A DNA stretch of 64,000 bases, taken from positions 1,736,001-1,800,000 of the forward strand of contig RCSZ01000007.1 of assembly GCA_014898425.1 (NCBI GenBank), written 5' to 3'. This document shows positions 924 to 64,000 of the stretch, in pieces (position 1 is the stretch's first letter; each line of letters opens with the position of its first letter). Source of the stretch: Botryotinia globosa (lineage: Eukaryota > Ascomycota > Leotiomycetes > Helotiales > Sclerotiniaceae). Both the position numbers and the translations under genes were made by a program. The notes under the pieces are model-generated. The model ran no database searches, was not told the DNA's origin, and was given only the letters and a program-made list of their open reading frames with translations.

Positions 924-2457
924 TCAAACAATTTTAGCACATCTGCCTATATCCACCCCTGCACCATTGTAGAGTTGCCTCAATTTTGTTCTAGGCTTTT
1001 CTCCTTCAATTGATGAGTCGAAACTTGGCGTTCTAGATATCTTTGACGCATGTCTCTTTAGCATTATGCTTGATGGCAAATTTTCAACGGCTGGTAAAGA
1101 TAGTAATATATTATCTGCCGAATTTTGTTTAGGGGCTGTGGCTTCACTAGATTCATCCTTCATTGCCTGAAGTGATATATCTACCCGTGCTCCATCTAGG
1201 TACGTACTATGAGTCCATGCAGACTCCAATCCCGGAAGGAATTGCTCCAGCTCGCGCATTTCGACCCAAGTTATTGTATCTTCGGTCATAGCAATATATA
1301 AGTCTTCAATATTACCAAACCCATCAAGGACAGCGCAATATTTCTTCAGGAAGTTGACATCATAATTACTGAGGGCCTGTTCGGTTGAAGTTAGTATCAT
1401 CAACACAAGCAAAAGAAAAGCTCCGGGGCATACTCACTAACTGTGCGTCTATTTGTCGAAGCATAGGAAGGCCTCTTAGATTTTTGACATCACAGATCTT
1501 GGCCACAAGTGGTTGCCAAGGTCTTCCTCGCAGGACTGGCGCAAAAGCAGAACTCACGGCCTCCTTGAATGAATCACTATTTGTGTCGGACACAACTATC
1601 TTTTGATGCAAGCCTCGAGATAGGCATCTTTTGTAAGCTGCTGTGTCCTTTTCAAAAGGGAAAGGCTGGGATGATGTGGGCATAAGGGAGATGTGTACAG
1701 TCCATGAACAAGTCCCACATCCATCACCCGAAAGATCTCCTTCCAGGAATTTCTGACCTGATGCAAAACCATTTATAGGCGTTTTAAAATCCCTTATAGC
1801 ACCAACTTCTCCAGGACTTATCGTGTTCTCAATTGCGATCTGCAAATTCGCAGTAGGAGGCGTCGATGCTTTTCTTCTTCGAGTCCTCTTTGAAGGCGCG
1901 AGAGTTCGCGCCGAGACATTTTCAAGAGCGTCTACTCTATCTTCTACTTTCATTGACGCATCGTCCAACTCGATCATCCTAGCATGAATTCTGTGTACGT
2001 CATCCACTAATCCTTCGATCCGATCATCGTAATATGGTGTTCGCTTGTTCAAGAGTCCAACGTTCTGCCAAAGACCGCCGATGCCACGATGAATACTTCG
2101 CATCTCAACTTCGCGTTCCAAGTTCTCTTTTTCAACAAGTTCTTCTAATTTTATAAGCCGATCAAACAAGCCACCTTTCCCTATACGCCGTTCTCGATCT
2201 AGCTCCTCCTCGAGAGTACCAATCCTCAACTTCAACGCATCTAATTCTTCTTTACTAGAAGATTCTGGGTCTGAATTGTGATATACTGCCTGGTGTCCGC
2301 AATGGCACAAACTGCCTGGAATGGACCTATTGCATGCAAATCCGACGCACGCGCATCGCAGCTGCTTTGATTCGGGATACAGTAGAATGAATCTGCAACC
2401 ACCCTTGGGAAGATGTGAATCATTTGTATGAGTTTTGTCACAATAGGGCTCGGACAT
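924..2457 (-). CDS. hypothetical protein: Cys/His-rich N-terminus plus coiled coil, 490 aa
   Basis: Two exons, 2457-1438 and 1376-924, with a 61-nt intron (GTGAGT donor, ACTAAC branch site, CAG acceptor). The join is phase 0 and gives 490 residues. Residues about 20-60 hold closely spaced cysteines and histidines (CACVGF, LCHCGHQAVYH), a pattern seen in uncharacterised fungal proteins and possibly a small zinc-binding fold. Residues about 68-190 are charged and heptad-like, so probably coiled coil, and are followed by a basic patch (KRTRRRK). The C-terminal half, through WVEMRELEQFLPG, has no domain I recognise. I see no signal peptide or membrane segment. The function is unknown; a scaffold or regulatory role would be a guess. 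The next gene on this strand is far away. Confidence 0.75.
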
Positions 2458-5864: not shown

Positions 5865-5984
5865 TATGATATTTATAATATATGATATTTATAATATATG
5901 ATATTTATAATATATGATATTTATAATATATGATATTTATAATATATGATATTTATAATATATGATATTTATAATATATGATAT
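5865..5984. repeat. 16-bp AT-only tandem repeat
   Basis: About 7.5 near-perfect copies of TATGATATTTATAATA, immediately 3' of the gene ending at 5813. Confidence 0.95.
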
Positions 5985-6098
5985 TGATAGTATTTATAAT
6001 ATTATCTCGATAATAGATTCTGAATATCTTTACTTGAGACTCTTCCTCACTAGAAGAAGGCTTTTGGAGTTACGAAAAAGAAGGTTTGTAATCTTACA

Positions 6099-6288
6099 TT
6101 TTTGATTTTTGATTTTGATTTTTGATTTTTGATTTTTGATTTTTGATTTTTGATTTTTGATTTTTGATTTTTGATTTTTGATTTTTGATTTTTGATTTTT
6201 GATTTTTGATTTTTGATTTTTGATTTTTGATTTTTGATTTTTGATTTTTGATTTTTGATTTTTGATTTTTGATTTTTGATTTTTGATT
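6099..6288. repeat. 7-bp minisatellite (ATTTTTG)n
   Basis: About 27 nearly uninterrupted copies of a 7-bp unit, with one shortened copy near the left end. Because 7 is not a multiple of 3, the minus strand reads as a long open frame of repeated KSKIKNQ, which is a composition artefact. Confidence 0.97.
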
Positions 6289-7141
6289 TCCATAGCCTCC
6301 ACTATATATCAAATGATGAATCATTATCATAAGTTTTCAAAAAGTCGGCGAGGTGGAATTATCCCGCGTATTGCATATCCCCAATTCAAATCAAATCCAT
6401 CATAGCCCAAGTAATAATCAGCACTCTCACTTATGTATTTACATCACTCTATCACTCCATCACTCCATCACACCCCTCCCCTTCATCCTCCGCAATTTTT
6501 CCCCCAAGCTCCCTGCCGCTCCCGACCCTCAATCTTTCCATCCCTAGCCCACCCAAAACTTTGCTCCCCTCCCCAGCATCCTTCCCATCCCGCGCACATA
6601 AATTTCCCACCCCCATAACCAGGGCTCTCATGCCCTGTCCCCTCTTGACAAAAAGCTGCACGAGCTCATCATCTGCCGGTCGATCGAGTTGCATCGTGCT
6701 GGGATAGGGATGATAGAATTTTTCTTCCTCCTCATCATCTTCATCCCTTTCCCTTTCCCTCCCCTTTGGTTTCCCCTCATCTCCGTGCTCAGATGCAGAA
6801 CGGTGGGATGTTCCATACCGCTTGCAGCTCCAATGACACTCTTCGCATGCCAGTGTAATATATCCAAACAATCGCATGCAGAATTGCGCCAATTTGTGTA
6901 TATTTGGAGACCCGGTAACCAGATGGGATGATTCGGGTGGTATGTGGGAAGGGGTGATGGGATCGCTAGATATGTACATGAGGAACAGCTGAGAAGTTGC
7001 TGCCATTCAATTGCGCTTCCACTTCCCATAAAACTTCCAGGCACGGTAAAAATACCGAACTTTCGTCTAGCGATACGCTAGGGCGAATCTGAAAGTGCAA
7101 GTACCACATGCTATCTAGGAGCTAGGGAGCGTGAGAATGTA
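6289..7141. other. intergenic next to the truncated transcription factor
   Basis: C-rich stretch (6440-6600) without recognisable genes. Overlapping open frames on both strands are low complexity and show no domain. This is where the missing C-terminal half of the transcription factor at 7142-9179 would be expected on the minus strand, but I see no continuation of that family. Confidence 0.45.
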
Positions 7142-14476: not shown

Positions 14477-14860
14477 TTTACAGATTTATTATACGTCTAT
14501 TATACGATTTACTACACGTCTATTATAAGATTTACCACACGTCTATTATACGATTTATTATACGTCTATTATAAGATTTACCACACATTTATTATAAGAT
14601 TTACCACACGTTTATTATAAGATTTACCACACGTCTATTATAAGATTTACCACCCGTTTATTATAAGATTTACTACACATTTATTATAAAATTTACTACA
14701 CATTTATTATAAAATTTACTACACATTTATTATAAAATTTACTATACATTTATTATAAGATTTACCACACGTCTATTATAAGATTTACCACACGTCTATT
14801 ATAAGATTTACCACACGTCTATTATAAGATTTATCACACGTTCATTATAAGATTAGATTG
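14477..14860. repeat. 23-bp minisatellite, about 17 copies
   Basis: Tandem copies of a 23-bp unit of the form TATTATAAGATTTACCACAC plus GTC. Substitutions are mostly C/T and G/A (CCACACGTC versus CTACACATT). The central copies, about 14660-14760, are the most AT-rich. Confidence 0.95.
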
Positions 14861-26995: not shown

Positions 26996-27598
26996 GGGAA
27001 CAAACAGTTGTTGAGGATGTTGGTTATGGGATAGGAGTTTTACTCTCTGGTGTAATCCACCATATGGACTCGCATCGTCCGACTCGATTTTCGAGATCTG
27101 AATGCTATCTACGATATTAAAATACAATGCAACTAAATGAATGAATGAGATGAGCTCTTTTTGTACTCGGCTGTTGTGATACTTTGTTCCTCGGGTATTC
27201 GAACACTCGACTTTTCCACAATTTCAATCTTTCCCTTCGTACTTCTTACTAGAGCGGTCGACGTGGAACAAAACCTAGATTGGATAACCATATTCCTTCC
27301 ATTACCCTCTGATTCTCTCCTTTCCCCCTACAACCGAATAACCCGCCGTTCTAATAGTCAATACCTTTCATTCACCCCACCCACTCCCATGTACTCCTCA
27401 AATGCCCCTCTAGACCATGAGCTACTCGGGTATGACATTAGAACCAGCTAGCAATCACATCCCGCATTTATGACCTAACCGCTTATTGGTTCCGCTGTAC
27501 GATTTATCTCATTCAGGTATCGGTGAGTGTGCTTCTCATTGTGATTTTTCTATGATCAAAACTGATTGGTTGTTTATATTTGGATCGCGGGATGGTGT

Positions 27599-27599
<1 letters not shown>

Positions 27600-27696
<97 letters not shown>

Positions 27697-27763
27697 TGTA
27701 TGCGTGTGTATGTGTGTGTATGTGTGTGTATGTGTGTATGTGTGTGTATATATATATATATAT
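27600..27763. repeat. (GT)n microsatellite ending in (AT)n
   Basis: More than 40 uninterrupted GT dinucleotides, then GTGTATGT variants, then a TA run. All cysteine/valine open frames through it are artefacts. Confidence 0.98.
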
Positions 27764-35652: not shown

Positions 35653-36479
35653 TAACTCTTATATACTTTGAGACTAGTCCTCTCGCTTAGTATTTCATAG
35701 TATGTATATAGTCTAGTAACTTAAGATTATTTACCTATAGGTACGATTATATAATAAAGAGATATAAATATATCTTATTCTTCGATTCAAATGTCATTTA
35801 TCTTATACTCATCTAATACTTTCCCATTAATATTATTATTTCAATTATCCTTTAGCTCTACAATCACAACAAAAAGTATAATATAGTTTACAAAATCAAT
35901 CCTCCGGATCTATTCGACTCGCTTTAGTAGATTCCCCGACCTGCAAATTTAGATTTCTCTATTTGGATACTGATCTGCTATTTGTTTAAATTTGTTATCA
36001 AAAGGAGAATATCAGCCCGATCAGTGAAGTATATGGCAATATTGAATGTAGTATTGGGTTCGGGATTGGTACTCAATTCAGTAATTGCTTTTTTACAATC
36101 ATTTATTTAGGTTGGATAGATGGATTCAAATGGTGGTGGACGGAGATCTCCAAGTTGGAATGTCACTGGAATGCTTCCAGGTTGCCCTTGAAAGACGGTC
36201 ACTGGGGACAGCATTTCGGCCAAAATAGTCCGTAGTAGAAGTACTATGCACGTACCACATTATTGAAATAGATTGGCGAGGAATTTCGGAGATATTGTAT
36301 GAAGATTTGAAGATTTGAAGATACGAGCGAGTACTGCACGTGGGACAGAAGACCGGCGGTTTTTCCTTTTGGTAGGTGTATATCCGGGAAGGAAGGAAGT
36401 ACATACATACGAAACAAAAGATGTATTTCTATCGTGGTTTGTGATCCACCGTTCATGAACCACACAATTAGTGGAATCC
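35653..36479. other. AT-rich spacer between the TIR element and the retrotransposon
   Basis: No gene supported. AT-rich to about 35900, then mixed composition. Overlapping minus-strand frames at 36126-36465 have no motif. The last five bases (AATCC, 36475-36479) are the left copy of the retrotransposon target duplication. Confidence 0.5.
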
Positions 36480-36649
36480 TATTGGTATCAACTTGGTTGA
36501 TATAAATATAAGTACTTAGTTCTATATGATTGTATTCGTTCTTGATTATTATTAACTATGGAAAACTAAGTACTAAATATATAAAAAAGTGTTAATACAA
36601 TACTAATTAATATAATATCCTCTTTGATTATATAATCAATATCCTGATA
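36480..36649. repeat. 5' LTR, 170 bp
   Basis: Starts TATTGGTATCAACTTGG and ends near ATCCTGATA, matching the solo LTR start TGTTGGTATCAACTTGG and end GTCCCGACA after transitions. It is AT-enriched along its whole length. Confidence 0.92.
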
Positions 36650-39600
36650 TTAATAATTCTCTAAAAATGAATGCGATTATATATTTTAGTTTATAATCTA
36701 TTTTAGATATAGTATTCTTTTAATTTTATTTAGTTTTTATATTACTATCCTTTTTCTATTCAATATATAACTTTAATAACTATCTTATTAATATCAATTA
36801 AATCTTTTAATATTTAATATACATCGTTTTTGATTATAGCATTTATAAAGTTCGATTTTCTATTAATCCATTTAATCTTTATGATTTCTCTATTCTTATA
36901 GTATTATTTTAAAATCATAATATCGATTAGAAACCGTTTTTCTATATTTATATCAAATTTAATTAATAAATTATATAATAACTTTGAATCTATATAAAAT
37001 ATAAATAGTATTAGCTTTTTAGGTTTGAAAATAGTATTAATAATATTTTTAATAGCAGCTCTAATATCGAAGTCTAGAATCAATATATATAACTCAGAAG
37101 CTAATATATTTTTAATAATTCTTTTATATTTAATTAATATCTAATATATAATATTAATATTATTATATTTATTCATTAAACAGATTATATAATCAATTTA
37201 TAATAATAAATCAATATTATTAGTAAATGATATATCAATGAAAATAACTAATTTAATAAAATTTATATTTAAAAATATAAATATAAATCCTTTTTTCAGA
37301 TTATTTATTTGCTATTTGATAATTTTATTAAGCTTGTTTATATTTTCTTTTTTCAGATCTATTATTTAGATAATAATAGAAAAATAATAAAATATCTTTA
37401 ATTAATATATAATTATAATATATATTTTTTTTATATATTGAATAATATATTGATTTTTTGAAATAATATTTTTCTAAACTTTTTCTTTTGTTTTGTGTAT
37501 ATTGATATTTCTGGTTATAATTATTTTAATATTATTATATTATTTCTTTTAATTAAAATAAATCTTATTACTTTTGAGAATAATTAAATAATTGTTAAAT
37601 TTAAATAAATAGTTTTTTATAAATTGTTTTTTATCTTTAATTATAAAATTAATCTTATTCAATTATTTTTGTTTTAAATATACAAATCCCTTGTTTATAA
37701 TTATAAAAATATTATTGATTTGAAGTTTTATAATACTAATACTGTTAGTTGAATAGAATAAATAAGGGTTATATATAAATTGCATTATATTCAGTTTATC
37801 CTTGTAATAATTATAATAAATTCCAAATCAATAATTTCTTATTTCAGGAATATTATATAAAGGTTTTATAATGTATAGAATATATCTATTTTCAAGTCCA
37901 ATCTTTTTTGATATTTCTATATAAATAGATCTATTTAAAGTTGTAGTCGATTAAATATATATTTATATAATATCCTATAAATAGATTTAAATATATTTAT
38001 TTAATATTTATAGAATAATAGTAAATATAAGAATAATATACTAATTAATATATTAAATAATAAATAACTATATTAAAACAATAGTTTTATTTTTGTTTTA
38101 ATATATTTAAATTATTAGTTATGACTTTGTATATATCTTATTAATATCTTTTTCTTTTATTTTATTAATAAAATATAATTTGAAAAATCTTATTCCAAAT
38201 GGAATACTGTTTTTTGAGATAATTTTAAAGACTTTATTCTCTATTAGTTTATTAATTTCCTTATATTATAATTCTATATATTTTATAAGTATATTATTTT
38301 GTAAGAATATAATCAATTATAATAATTTCGCAATATATTCTTTATTAATATTTATTATATTAATTATTCTTATTAAATTGCTTTTTATATAATAATATAG
38401 TTGTATATCTAATTATATTACTGATAATGATATTTGGGGTTATAATATCTCTATATATAATATATCAATAATTATAATATTATTGTTATTATTATTCGTA
38501 TAATTATCTTTCAATTCTATTTCTTTAGATTTTATATAAAAGAATTATATAAACATAAATTGGAATTTAATTAATCTACTGGAAAATTCCATTTTATATA
38601 TCTTCCTATCTATTTCAATTAGAATATACAATCTAATTCACTTGTTTAATATATTATTATCTTTTCCCTTTCTTTATATTAAAATTTCTAAATTCAATAG
38701 TAATATAAAAACAAATATTGTAAACAATTTATTTCTTAGTTTCAATACCTTTATAATTTATTTCTTAGTTCAAATATAATATATTTTTGTTATAGTTTTT
38801 TTTATAGCTTTTATATATTGAATAATTATTGTAATTAATAGATTAATATTATTTAATTTAAAATATATCTTATAAATTAATAATATAGAAATAAATTCAT
38901 TTGGTTTTGTTATATTATTTACAGTTTTTATTGCTATTTGAAAAATTATTATTTTAATTAAATTGTTATTTTCAAGTTTTTTTATTAAAATTTTATATAT
39001 ATAATATAATGGGTAATAATATCTTTTGATAATATTTATAAAGTTGTATATTTTGATAGATATATTTTTAATAATAATTGATATAGATTTTATATTTTAA
39101 ATAAACTTTTTATTTATAAAATTCTTTTTAGTATTATAAATGATATAATCTGGTGGTTTAATGTATATATTAATTTAGTATTCTTTGAGATTATTGAATA
39201 TATATTTAATAAAAATATTTTCAAAAAATCAAATTGTTTAATAATATATTGTTTTATTAATAATATATAAAACTAGATTGTTTATAATGTATATAATATT
39301 AATATAAATAATATAATTGAATTCAATATCTTTTGGTAAAATGAATTTAAAATATTCTAATGATTTATTATATATTTGATAATGCTTGTAATATTTAATA
39401 AAATATTTAATAATATTATTACTCTTATTATAATCTGTTTATTGTAATATATTATAAAAATATTATATTAATAAATAATCGAATTATTAATGTAAATATT
39501 ATAACTCTATAATTATCAAATAGTAATTATTTTAATAAATCAATTTTTGAATAAATTAATTTATATTTACTTTTTATGTTAAAAATGTATGTTTATATCT

Positions 39601-42035
39601 TCTAATAATAAAATATTCATTTTTGGGGTAATAAATTGGTTAATAATATTATTATAAAACATTTTAAAATAATTTATATCTTTAAGATTTAATAAAAATA
39701 AAATATCAATATTTATAATATAAAAATCAATATCTTCGAATAGTATAATAATTCAAAATGATTTTATTAATATTGTAATTCCCTTTTTGAAATGTATATT
39801 TATAGTCCCTATTATCAATAGATTATATTCAATTAAACAGATTCATTTTTATATATAATATTATTCAATTCCAATTATAAATTTCCCTATATATATTATA
39901 TTAATATATATATCAAAGAATTCTTTATTTATATAATTTGTATAAAAAATATTTATTACATTTTTTATAAATAAAATAATTTCAATAAAATTTCTAGTTA
40001 TTATATACAATATTATATTAAATAATAGTTGATTAAATACTTCCTAGTTATTGATAGGCTTGAAATTCATAAAAAATATCTTATCCATATTATCTTTAAT
40101 ATTGAGGTTTATAAAAAACAGATTTATTTCGATCTCTAAATCAAACTCTATATCAATAACCTCTCCCTTATATTCAATTATTTATTAAATATATTATTAT
40201 TATTATTTTTAATCTTCTCTTTATATTCACATCTATTCTTATCTTATTTTTCTTTAAAATGTTTTATTAATTAATACCTTTTTTTTTTATATATTTAGTA
40301 ATAATTATATTAATTAAATAAACCTAAATATTATTATTTGTTATATAAATTATTTCTAAAATTATTATTATTTCTGGAATTTTTGAAATTGTTTTGACTA
40401 TTGTTATAATTGTTATTACTATAGAATTTCCTATTAATAAATAATATTATATCCCCTCCATCCTTATATAATCTTTTTCATATATTAATAGATTATTACA
40501 ATTAATTGATTAAATTAAATATCTTTTTCTTAAAATCAAAATAAACTAGATTATATATCTTTATATTTTCACAAATAAATATAAATTTATTATAAAAATA
40601 AAATATCTATTATATAACAAAATTGAATTGGTGTTATAATATATATAATTATTTGATTATAATTATAAAATATTTATTAAATAATTTGTTTTTATACTTT
40701 TTTCTAATTGATTTCAAAATGATATTGTTTTATTTCGATAATATATTTTATTAATATTTATTTTCTTTGAAATTATTTTATATATAGATACAAAGCTTTT
40801 TAAATATCAATAATAGTGAGTTGTAATTAATATAAAAGAATTGAAGTGTATTTTTTTTAAATATAATTGAAAATATTTTATAATATATATTTATAGGTAT
40901 CTTTATATATCATAAAATTTTATAAAATATTAAAAGTTTGAAATCGAAATTGTTATTATTTTTATTATATTTCTTATTATTAATATAAAATTTCAATAAA
41001 CTAATAAGAGATTGTATATTGAAATATAATATCAATGTTTTATTCTTTTAGGATTTACAACCTTTATTATCTTTATTATTGTTGCTATCTTTGTTATTAA
41101 GGTCTCCTATATCTTTATTTTTATTATATTTACTTTCATCGTCTTTGTCTATATATTTGAAATTGTTTTTAATAAATTTACAAATAATTCCGAATTTGAA
41201 TTTGAATTCTTTAATATTAATATCTTTTAGAGTTTTTTAAACTTATACTTTTATTTATTTATTAATAATAGTTTTATAAAATTATTCGAATAAAGTTACA
41301 AATATTTCAATATCTATTTTTGATAGATATACTCCTTGAATATATAATATTATATATAACTTTTATATATAAATCTAATAGATTTTTATAAATTGTATAA
41401 TTGTAAATATTCTAAAGTTATAATAAAAGATTTCTATTAGATTATTATTATTGATATTTTTATAATTATATTGTTTATATTTGAATTTGATATATTTAAT
41501 AAGCTTTTTACTATCAATAATAATAGCTTTTTTATTATTTGATATTATTTTTAATAAATTAAATTATTCTTTATATTCTTCCTTTTTCTTTTCTATATAT
41601 ATATTTTTATTAATAATATTCTTAATTAAAATAATATTATTTTTTGATATGATTATATATATATAAATAAGAATATTTCGAAAGTTATTATAAATATATA
41701 TATATTTGTATATATAAAAGAGTTTTTTACAAATATAAAGAATAATAAAAATCTTTGTTTTACCTAATATGATGTATAATATAAAGATGAATACATAATA
41801 AATACAAAATCGATTTGTTATATTTAATAAGATCGAATTTTTTGAATATATCTTCCTAATATAATTATTCAAAATATATTCTTTAATACTATAAAAAGAG
41901 ATAGTATATTATATCTAATACAATAATATCTTTTCTATAGTTTTTTTAGAATTTCTATTAATTCTGAATATTATATAAAAATATCTAATACTTTTAATAA
42001 AGTTTAAAACCCTAATTTGTGATATTATTAATTAG

Positions 42036-52696: not shown

Positions 52697-53100
52697 GTTA
52701 GGGGGTTAGGGGGTTAGATGGTTAGATGAGTAGATGAGTAGATGGGTAGATGGGTAGATGAGTAGATGGGTAGATGGGTAGATGAGTAGATGGGTAGATG
52801 GGTAGATGAGTAGATGGGTAAATGGGTAAATGGGGAGATGATAGATGGTTAAATAAAGAAATGGGGAGATGATAGATGGTTAGATGAGTAGATGGGTAGA
52901 TGAGTAGATGGGTAGATGGGTAGATGAGTAGATGGGTAGATGGGTAGATGGGTAGATGAATAGATGGGTAGATGGGTAGATGATAGATGGTTAAATAAAG
53001 AAATGGGGAGATGGGTAGATAGATAGATGAATAGATAGGTAGATGATTAAATGATTAAATGGTTAGATGATTAGATGGTTAGATAGTTAGATAAGTAAGA
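52697..53100. repeat. 8-bp minisatellite (TAGATGGG/TAGATGAG)n
   Basis: About 45 degenerate tandem copies. The array begins with three TTAGGGGG units, passes through TAGATGAG/TAGATGGG alternation, and decays into TTAAATGA-like copies. A 20-bp block (AGATGATAGATGGTTAAATA) recurs within it. Confidence 0.95.
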
Positions 53101-54756: not shown

Positions 54757-57034
54757 ATGTCGACTCCATCGACTTTACCTCCCCATCATCCCAGCTACGG
54801 ATACTCACATCATCAGAATTATCAATCAAACCACCAATATCGAGCGAGCAACGGCCTGTTGAACGGAAATAGCCGTCTGGGCACCTCTTACACCCTTCCG
54901 ACCAACTCGTCGAGCAACAGCACATCGTCGAGTGTAGCTCCTCTTCCAAAGTCGACTCAAATCCCCTCACACCCTGCGAAAGTCGAGTCTAAAAAGTCTC
55001 CAAAAAAGCCCGCAGCCATGGTCTCTACCTCGTCGCAAGCGCCTCCCCCGCACAAGAGACAAAGATCCAAGGAGAGACAACCAGACTGGGACAAATTCTA
55101 CGAGAATGGTTTACCCAAAGAGGTAATTGTCATCGATAGTTCTGAATCCCCCGAACCATCGTTGGACGTTTCCTCACACATCCAATCCAATAATTCTGCC
55201 GTGGCAGCGAATAATGGCCATGCGGCGAAGAAGAGAAAACGCAATGATGCATATGATCCCGTATACCAACTCGGCCCCTCGATCGATCCGAGTCCACACT
55301 ACAAATCAGAATCGGGCTCTGGTTCCACGATATCCACCGATCGCACAACATCAGCAATTCATACAACAGCCGCTACATCCCTTGGTTCACATTCATCCAA
55401 TGGGCAAAATGGGTACGAGGCTGCGGAAGTTATAGGGCAGAAGAGGAAAAGGACCAATACTCGGTTGCAAATTGCGAATGAAGCGAAGAGGAAAGAACTA
55501 GAGATCAATGGGGATGCTTTCACCAACTACATACCACCTCCCAAGCCACCCATAAAATCTCGCGATGTCCCAGTACGACCGATTGCGGATGTAAGTCTTG
55601 ATGCTTTCCATGGTACGATTGAAAGCTAACATGTGTGAAGAATTCTTATACTAAGAATACCAAAATCGATGATGACGACGGACATTATATCGTGGTTCCA
55701 GAAACGAACCTAACAACACAATGTAAGTTTCTACGGCTCCATTCAATCCCTCCTGCTAATAAGGAATTAGACCAGGTTCAGAAATTACTTGGCCAAGGAA
55801 CCTTTGGAAAGGTTGTACAAGCTAAAGATCTTCAAAATGATAAATGTGTTGCTATCAAGATCATTCGCTCTGTACAAAAATATCGGGATGCTTCGAAAAT
55901 TGAGTTACGAGTCCTCTCAACACTCAAAGCAAATGATCGTGAGAACCGAAACAGATGTATACATCTTCGGGATTGTTTCGATTACAGAGGGCATATATGT
56001 ATAGTCATGGACCTTTTGGGACAAAGCGTCTTCGATTTCTTGAAGGGCAATTCCTTCGTGCCCTTTCCCAACTCCCAGATCCAACATTTTGCGCGTCAGT
56101 TATTTACGAGTGTTGCTTGTAAGTCTCTTGCCATTAATAAGAAGCCACGAGCTAACAGTGGGCCAGTTCTCCACGACTTGAACTTGATTCACACAGATCT
56201 CAAGCCAGAGAATATCTTATTATGCAACAGTGCATATCAAGCTTTTACATACAGCCGCAAAATTCCTTCTTCTTCAAGCACAGTTACGCGACAGGCGGCA
56301 CAGCGTAAAGTTCTTCTGGATACAGAAATTCGACTCATTGATTTTGGCTCCGCAACCTTTCAGGATGAATATCACTCATCTGTCGTATCTACACGTCATT
56401 ACCGAGCTCCTGAAATTATTCTTGGTCTTGGTTGGTCGTTCCCTTGCGACATCTGGAGTATTGGATGCATACTTGTCGAATTCTTTACGGGTGACGCCCT
56501 TTTCCAAACACATGACAACCTGGAGCATCTGGCCATGATGGAAGCGGTAGTCGATAAGAAAATAGATAGCCATCTCGTTCAACAAGTCAACACGATGGCA
56601 AAGCGAAACGGAGGAAATCCAGCTCAAAAGTGAGTGCTCCAGAATCTTCCCGAGAGACTATATACTGATGTAATTTCTCAGATATTTCAAGCGCTTAAGA
56701 CTTGAGTACCCATCTGCTGACACCACAAGGGCTTCACGGCGATTTGTGAAGGCGATGAAACCCTTACATGTAAGTTGTTCCAAATATTCTTTAGCAAACC
56801 TTGCTAACAACATCATAGGAAATCATTAAGGATCAGTCGAAATTTAGCAAGAATTTTTTGGATCTATTGAGAAAGATATTTGTCTATGATCCAAACGAAC
56901 GCATTACAGCCAAGGAGGCGCTTCAACATCCGTGGTTTAAGGAAGCCGCAACTGCAGATGACGGAACAGAAGCGGCGAAAATCAGATTACAGAGGCAAAG
57001 CGGAACATTTGTGGCACCACAGAGGCATCATTGA
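54757..57034 (+). CDS. KNS1: LAMMER (CLK/Kns1-type) dual-specificity protein kinase, 676 aa
   Basis: Six exons: 54757-55590, 55641-55722, 55771-56118, 56167-56629, 56682-56769 and 56819-57034, in phase, giving 676 residues. The first about 300 residues are Ser/Pro/His-rich and disordered, with basic motifs (KKRKRN, GQKRKRTN) that may direct nuclear import. The kinase domain follows: YQVQKLLGQGTFGKVVQAKD (P-loop), VAIKII (Lys), LIHTDLKPENILL (catalytic loop in the LAMMER form), LIDFGSATF (DFG), STRHYRAPEIILGLGWS (activation segment), DIWSIGCILVEF, then EHLAMMEAVV, the family's naming motif in a slightly diverged form, and ITAKEALQHPWF. LAMMER kinases phosphorylate SR-type splicing factors and link nutrient signals to growth. 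The chosen ATG opens the frame. A join at CAG at 55776 instead of ATTAG at 55770 would break the protein. Confidence 0.94.
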
Positions 57035-62717: not shown

Positions 62718-63002
62718 ATGCGCTTCCACATCCCCCCCCTCCGCACCCTCTCCCTCTCATCCAAGCGATCCAAGCGATCCCAACGCACCAAATCCCCCCC
62801 CCCCACCCGCAGCATCGGCACCCAAACCACGCTCACCCGCACGCACAGCTCGCGCTGGACACAAACGCCTCACAGATACATTTCCTTTCATGAAGAGCAT
62901 GGGCTGCAGCCGCCTAGGAAAAGCAGATTCGCGTGGCCGGCTTGGTATGCGGTTCTTGGGGGAGTGGTGCTCGGGTGGTTTGGTACGAGGGAGTGGGTGT
63001 AG
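62718..63002 (+). CDS. small single-pass membrane protein, 94 aa
   Basis: The ATG at 62718 has an A-rich context (GAAAACGAAAA) and is the first ATG after the TATA box. The 94 residues begin MRFHIPPLRTLSLSSKRSKR, carry a basic Ser/Thr/Pro-rich N-terminal half (PPTRSIGTQTTLTRTHSSRW), a middle motif TPHRYISFHEEHGLQPP, and one hydrophobic segment near the end (FAWPAWYAVLGGVVLGWFG) before REWV and the stop. This suggests a tail-anchored or mitochondrial membrane protein, but I know no function. A GTGAGT donor follows the stop at once (63005), so the transcript may be spliced in its 3' UTR, leading toward the unusual intron-module array at 63271 onward. A start further up would lack an ATG. Confidence 0.6.
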   Translation: MRFHIPPLRTLSLSSKRSKRSQRTKSPPPTRSIGTQTTLTRTHSSRWTQTPHRYISFHEEHGLQPPRKSRFAWPAWYAVLGGVVLGWFGTREWV

Positions 63003-63270
63003 TGGTGAGTAATTTTTCTCTTTTCTTTGGTTGGGTTTTGAGGGTTGAGGGTTGAGTGCTGATTTGGTTTGATTTGATTTGATTCTTTCCTTTCTCTTCC
63101 CTTTTTTCCTCTTCTAATCTCTCATATGTCGATTTCTTACACTTACAACAAACAAACAAATGGTCGTCACTCTTTAGACTTCCACACACCGCTAGGAAAT
63201 AGATGGAGAAAGGGAAGAAGAAGAAAAAAAGTTTCGTTTCTCTAAATGTAGACATATATATAATAAGTTT
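63003..63270 (+). other. possible 3' UTR intron and leader to the module array
   Basis: Begins with GTGAGT at 63005 and contains pyrimidine-rich sequence with CTTCTAATCTC and TTTAG (63174-63178), so it can be read as a larger intron ending near 63178. No coding frame is supported on either strand; the long minus-strand frame is low-complexity Lys/Gln/Thr. Confidence 0.4.
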
Positions 63271-64000
63271 GTAAGTTTTCTTCTCGTCCCTGTCTTTGCT
63301 AATGGTTTGTAGGTATGTTTTTTTTCTTTCTCTCGTTATGGTTTGGTTTTGGTTTTGATAATGGTTTTTTTGGTACACGGGTAAGTTTTTCCTCGCTCCC
63401 CTTTTTTTGCTAATCGTGTATATAGTGGATACTATTTTTGAAGTTCTTTTTATTATCATCCGCTTGTTCGGAAGGCTAGGTAGGTTAATTTCTTCCCCCG
63501 GTTTTTGCTGGTTTTATATAGGTACCTGCTTCTTCTCAAATCAGAAATAGCAACTTTAGGTAAGTCATTCTTCTCCCGTTGTTCGCTAAATGAGTATAGG
63601 TGTTTTTACTTTCATATTCTAGGATTCAAAGATCTAGGTAAGTCGCTCTCCCGGTTTTGCTAATTGTGTATATAGTCATCCCCTCTCACCGTTCGCTAAT
63701 CAAGTATAGGTATCCTCACTCTCTTCACATATTCGTAATTAATACTTGAAGATGTAGGTAAGTCACTCCCTCTCCCTTTTGCTAATAGAATGTAGGTTTC
63801 CTTTTTCTTTTTCTTTTTCTTTTTCTTTTTCTTTCCCTTTTCTCCCTATTAAGATTTCAGGTAAGTCACTTCCGCCCCCATTTCGCTAACTGTGTACCGG
63901 CAGTATAATCACTATCTCATTCTTTCAATCCTAATACAGACTAGAATACAGGTAAGTCACTCTTTTTCCCCGTCCTGCTAATTGAACGTGTAGGTATCGC
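63271..64000 (+). repeat. tandem array of intron-like modules, runs off the window
   Basis: Eight similar modules of 38-45 nt lie at 63271-63312, 63381-63425, 63480-63521, 63560-63599, 63638-63675, 63758-63795, 63861-63903 and 63952-63993. Each has GTAAGT (once GTAGGT), a C/T tract starting with CACTC in the best copies, TTTGCTAAT or a close variant, and TAG or CAG about ten bases on. A ninth at 63676-63709 lacks its first bases. The stretches between are 38-82 nt, C/T-rich at the left and ending AG, often starting GTAT or GTAC right after the preceding TAG. One spacer contains a (CTTTTT)n run at 63797-63836. Whether they are spliced is not visible. Confidence 0.85.

Follow-up and report, generated by a model that had tools for sequence, protein, structure and literature searches.

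A single-locus array of compact intron-like elements in Botryotinia globosa

The array and its surroundings

The window analysed here, a stretch of 64,000 nucleotides of contig RCSZ01000007.1 of Botryotinia globosa, ends inside a tandem array of about 14 copies of an intron-like element of some 40 bases (Table 1). The array spans approximately 1.53 kb, from window position 63271 to the equivalent of 64799, which correspond to positions 271-1799 of L002, the sequence that carries it past the window. A sequence-only reading of the window had described eight modules in the last 730 nucleotides or so and an array cut by the window edge. Both points hold: the eight modules lie at 63271-63993, with the truncated copy as an addition, and further elements run on to L002:1799.

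The aligned set comprises 13 elements, all on the + strand and 36-47 nt long, with the general layout GTAAGTCACTC, pyrimidine tract, GCTAAY, TAG. Counts over 13 elements disregard the truncated copy as well as two weak candidate modules between elements 12 and 13, at L002:1488-1623 and 1624-1662. The earlier statement that each module carries a full set of splice signals was too strong, as module 3 has the donor GTAGGT and the branch GCTGGT; the motifs are otherwise in order. Element 11 has CT in place of the donor GT. Start-to-start spacing is irregular (78-120 nt across the first 12 elements), and the 13th element starts 357 nt further on.

Table 1. Elements of the array and the reading frame upstream of it. 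Positions are those of the window unless marked L002; gap is the donor-branch distance.
Feature	Position	Strand	Length (nt)	Gap (nt)	Remark
94-codon frame	62718..63002	+			Upstream of the array on the same strand; possible host transcript
Array, portion in the window	63271..64000	+			Continues past the edge to L002:1799
Element 1	63271..63312	+	42	21
Element 2	63381..63425	+	45	22
Element 3	63480..63521	+	42		Donor and branch degenerate
Element 4	63560..63599	+	40		Branch GCTAAA
Element 5	63638..63675	+	38	15
Truncated copy	63676..63709	+			Without a donor of its own; adjoins element 5
Element 6	63758..63795	+	38	17
Element 7	63861..63903	+	43	18
Element 8	63952..63993	+	42	19
Five further elements	L002:1066-1109, 1167-1213, 1286-1326, 1396-1431, 1753-1799	+			Past the window; in the aligned set

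The array is real and not a product of chance. A loose module pattern matches it 9 times in 1550 nt. In 200 shuffles the mean is 0.15 matches and the maximum 2, and elsewhere (281 kb, both strands) no 1550-nt stretch has more than two. When L002 is searched with a sequence model of the 13 elements, these (which match by construction) and the truncated copy all have E values of 0.0016 or lower, and no other match is below E 0.4.

The 94-codon frame upstream is preceded by a TATA-like and CT-rich stretch and has one homologue, in Botryotinia calthae, with 61% identity; the frame and its homologue make a host transcript somewhat likelier. A GTGAGT donor-like site at window position 63005, two bases past the stop codon of this frame, hints at an intron in the 3' UTR of the gene. 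Of the final residues of the B. calthae homologue, 5 of 6 agree with the translated sequence immediately ahead of element 1, a likeness which is at chance level in L002 and was discarded. Further downstream, between the array and APP1, inspection by eye points to what may be a small + strand gene with introns (L002:2981-3592).

No open stretch of over 67 codons appears in the array after removal of the elements in silico, and the proposal that the spacers are coding micro-exons was rejected on this ground. Searches for known RNAs gave no tRNA, and the three Rfam matches within the initial 5 kb of L002 were weak (E 1.1-3.1, far below the gathering score). The alignment has no consensus base pairs, and the stability of the 4 of 13 elements that were folded one at a time does not exceed that of shuffled sequences. 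A telomerase template was also considered and rejected: three long forms are absent, and one 8-mer, CCCTAACC, lies at L002:2304, outside the array.

Likeness among elements and occurrence in the genome

Pairwise scores among elements exceed those of dinucleotide shuffles by far (z 31), whereas the 35-nt flanks barely do so (z 1.9 upstream, 2.5 downstream), which speaks against a minisatellite with the whole unit alike. The nearest 20 nt 3' of the acceptor are slightly alike (z 3.6), and 3 of 78 spacer pairs reach a likeness of 1 in 100 or better, against about 1.2 expected. Tandem Repeats Finder, run on the window part, did not call the array as such. Elements further apart in the array are slightly less similar to each other (Spearman -0.28, permutation p 0.02).

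This likeness goes beyond splice consensus, as the sequence-only reading had maintained. The score per pair is 15.9 for the seven strict elements; in 500 random sevens it reaches no more than 8.9 when they are taken from 19 short matches to the same motifs in the genome, and no more than 10.0 when they are taken from 30 normal ones. The short controls are 19 of the 21 non-array matches with gaps of 14-23 (the remaining two repeat matches of this set with a second acceptor), and the normal controls are the first 30 or so listed with gaps of 24-33, second acceptors left out; one of the latter has a second branch-like site, so that its gap reads 21. The donor-branch tract is 88% pyrimidine in the elements, 54% in the 30 normal introns and 45% in the short matches. 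A CACTC following the donor is also conserved among elements, and we know of no splicing role for it. Conservation of the acceptor AG is in part due to construction, since the first fitting YAG was picked. We infer that the copies arose by local duplication and that the element itself is under constraint; the pattern of likeness alone would still allow repeated insertion, but no copies were found elsewhere.

Indeed, by pattern search the element occurs at a single locus. Five of the eight whole-genome matches to a first element pattern and two of the three to a second lie inside the array, and the four remaining matches have ordinary donor-branch gaps of 27-30. The genome-wide module search that had been suggested as a check thus returned matches with the spacing of the elements from the array only, and pattern searches found no similar copies in other genes, contrary to the idea of introner-like spread. 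Recursive splicing through zero-length exons, also put forward earlier, fares no better. Acceptors had been said to be followed often by GTAT or GTAC, an overstatement: this is the case in 4 of 13 elements, and any GT follows in 6. A donor with G at +5 comes directly after one acceptor of the 13 (GTATGT), and ratchet points are poorly supported for this reason. A YAG directly precedes the donor in 10 of 13 elements; a consensus branch at a suitable distance was found for one of these ten, and another such site precedes a left-out weak module.

Donor-branch spacing in the elements and in the genome

Matches to the strict pattern GTAAGT-gap-GCTAAY-(4 to 16)-YAG were counted on both strands of the 45.7-Mb genome, with the pattern read backwards as control and second acceptors included in both; a mixed-motif scan of intron lengths over 282 kb was too weak for short introns, and these whole-genome strict patterns were used instead. 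Gaps of 24-33 are represented by 391 matches against 60 in the control (163 against 28 for gaps of 24-28), and gaps of 34-43 by 184 against 69. At gaps of 14-23 there are 28 matches, seven of them in the array, against 48 (for gaps of 19-23, 14 with three in the array, against 26). The motif pair GTATGT/RCTAAC gives 260 against 71 at gaps of 24-33 and 27 against 67 at 14-23. The donor-branch gap of strict introns thus has a lower limit with a sharp onset at 24 nt, exact-motif counts leaving room for a few real introns with smaller gaps. Three matches with gaps of 24-28 fall within the window's protein-kinase frame or next to it (55723-55770, 56119-56166 and 56770-56818), the second just before the best-scoring stretch of the kinase domain found in this frame. 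Tight strict pairs are rarer than the reversed control (21 outside the array against 48, and 27 against 67 for the second pair), as if they were avoided genome-wide, an effect that could also be one of base composition.

All 13 aligned elements have donor-branch gaps of 15-22, with a usual distance from branch to acceptor. Of the earlier claim that the signals come in the right order and spacing, the order of GT donor, branch and AG therefore stands and the spacing does not, given the genomic onset at 24, and removal of every module on its own would be at odds with the donor-branch spacing seen in this genome. Candidates that obey the rule do exist across elements. The donor of element 5 and the branch of the truncated copy are separated by a normal gap of 51 and delimit a 72-nt candidate intron; a GTGAGT at L002:1488 with a branch at 1607 delimits one of 136 nt; and several other donors have a later branch at gaps of 93-129. 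Even without excision of single elements, the array could therefore be spliced to some extent.

Possible roles of the array

We tentatively prefer a reading in which the elements are locally duplicated, constrained and compact clusters of splice signals, which may recruit splicing factors without each being excised. The array would be a one-locus family of a 36-47 nt element whose copies have diverged, with donor, tract, branch and acceptor packed too tightly for the machinery of this genome to remove a copy alone. It would lie in non-coding RNA of the + strand, probably in the 3' part of what is transcribed from the gene at 62718, where the elements could bind U1 and branch-site/U2 factors. 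Such factors may bind and yet not finish on the same element, because the signals are complete and ordered and leave too little room between donor and branch. Most elements would then stay unspliced, or splice inefficiently from the donor of one to the branch of a later one, and the likely outcome would be retention, decay or silencing of the host RNA, as with cryptic introns of fission-yeast lncRNAs; alternatively, donors may pair with later branch sites such that neighbouring spacers are never joined. We infer the duplication history, transcription, factor binding and outcome from sequence. The preference is due to the ordered motifs of 13 elements and their likeness relative to flanks and matched-motif controls, to the small gaps, the pyrimidine-rich tract and the distance gradient, and to the lack of a long frame, the same-strand upstream gene with its homologue and the precedents for stalled complexes and cryptic introns. 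Against it count the mutated donors in 4 of the 5 rightmost aligned elements, the conserved CACTC, the slight likeness after the acceptor, the 40-60 nt introns of Cryptococcus and the limits of exact-motif counts. It is tempting to speculate that some 13 selected tight elements act as a spliceosome trap or combinatorial exclusion switch that controls the fate of the upstream gene's transcript, by holding splicing complexes in unproductive states and forbidding the joining of neighbouring segments, although we consider this extension doubtful.

Precedents for parts of the preferred reading come from several systems. Fission yeast has cryptic introns that carry consensus sites and are barely spliced; they attract splicing factors together with Pir2 and bring about the silencing of loci (PMC7229227). 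The array resembles these Pir2/ARS2-dependent introns in having non-coding consensus sites for which efficient splicing would not be needed; the yeast introns are single and backed by RNA and genetic evidence, whereas the elements here form an array described from the DNA sequence. Placed downstream of a gene promoter, it would be a strong form of such a system. Complexes in human extracts stall ahead of activation when donor and branch lie too close together (PMC6692369); as the limit in humans is about 50 nt, it is the principle alone that carries over to the array. A survey of Botrytis cinerea lncRNAs found introns in over 40% of them, according to a review (PMC12566771).

Among the alternatives, it is somewhat unlikely that the array is a degenerate repeat, either a binding motif for proteins on DNA or RNA or no functional unit at all, whose intron likeness is accidental. 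The conserved CACTC past the donor, the mutated donors at the right end and the irregular spacing of the first 12 elements would fit this view, but donor, tract, branch and acceptor are all conserved in order while the spacers are not, and a plain minisatellite should share its spacers, in contrast to the 3 of 78 pairs observed. A further possibility, unlikely in our judgement, is that the elements are genuine ultra-short introns of an lncRNA or a 3' UTR, each removed alone, the unbroken pyrimidine tract making the spacing workable. All splice motifs are indeed present in order with the usual branch-to-acceptor distance, and Cryptococcus splices introns of 40-60 nt well (PMC11913375); against this, neither motif pair is in excess genome-wide at gaps of 14-23. 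Should the elements be spliced after all, they would form a special intron class below the normal limit of this genome.

It is quite improbable that the array encodes mutually exclusive segments, with donors pairing only with later elements because their own donor and branch are unusable together, spacers never being joined and the RNA forming a combinatorial set. Gaps of 51-129 from several donors to later branches would allow it, and its principle is that cited for the exclusive exons of alpha-tropomyosin (in PMC6692369), where donor and branch lie too close for joint use; but the spacers are unlike each other, non-coding and of uneven length, and alpha-tropomyosin has a pair of exons in animals, whereas the array is a series in a fungus. 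Repeated insertion of introner-like elements, or stepwise removal of a long intron through zero-length exons, is disfavoured as very improbable, for although similarity ends at the element ends and some AG/GT junctions occur, no copies were found elsewhere in the genome, similarity has a weak positional gradient and the ratchet donors are weak.

The nearest known case, as far as the literature consulted goes, is the Cryptococcus gene CNN00420, which gained introns through repeat expansion (PMC2395259) and in which fungal introns were likewise multiplied within one locus. That gene is coding, with exact or near-exact repeats of about 107 nt that comprise exon ends and a full-length intron, whereas the array is non-coding, diverged and alike in the 40-nt element only. 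Fungal introner-like elements (PMC4457414, PMC9860276) are similar in that many intron-like sequences of one kind occur per genome; they lie in many unrelated genes, whereas searches found the array elements at one locus, and their spacing is too tight. The stwintrons of Hypoxylaceae and Xylariaceae (PMC12403724) share compound and repeated intron arrangements in ascomycetes, but inspection of the array by eye found no clear case of an internal intron splitting an external splice signal, such as the donor. No array of this kind was recognised in a limited literature collection consisting of titles and the beginnings of abstracts. If the elements are kept while spacers drift, something favours complete but too-tight splice signals, and the array would be a natural system in which to probe how short the donor-branch distance can be and how unproductive spliceosomes act on non-coding RNA.

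The window also contains ordinary tandem repeats, at 14482-14854, 52715-53097, 5865-5993, 6098-6289 and 27595-27747, which comprise, in this order, 16 copies of a 23-bp unit, 8/24-bp units, 8 copies of a 16-bp unit, 28 copies of a 7-bp unit and a long GT run. In an AT-rich block at 36000-42000, which may reflect repeat-induced mutation, GC content falls to 0.12-0.21; most of the window is at roughly 0.39-0.48.
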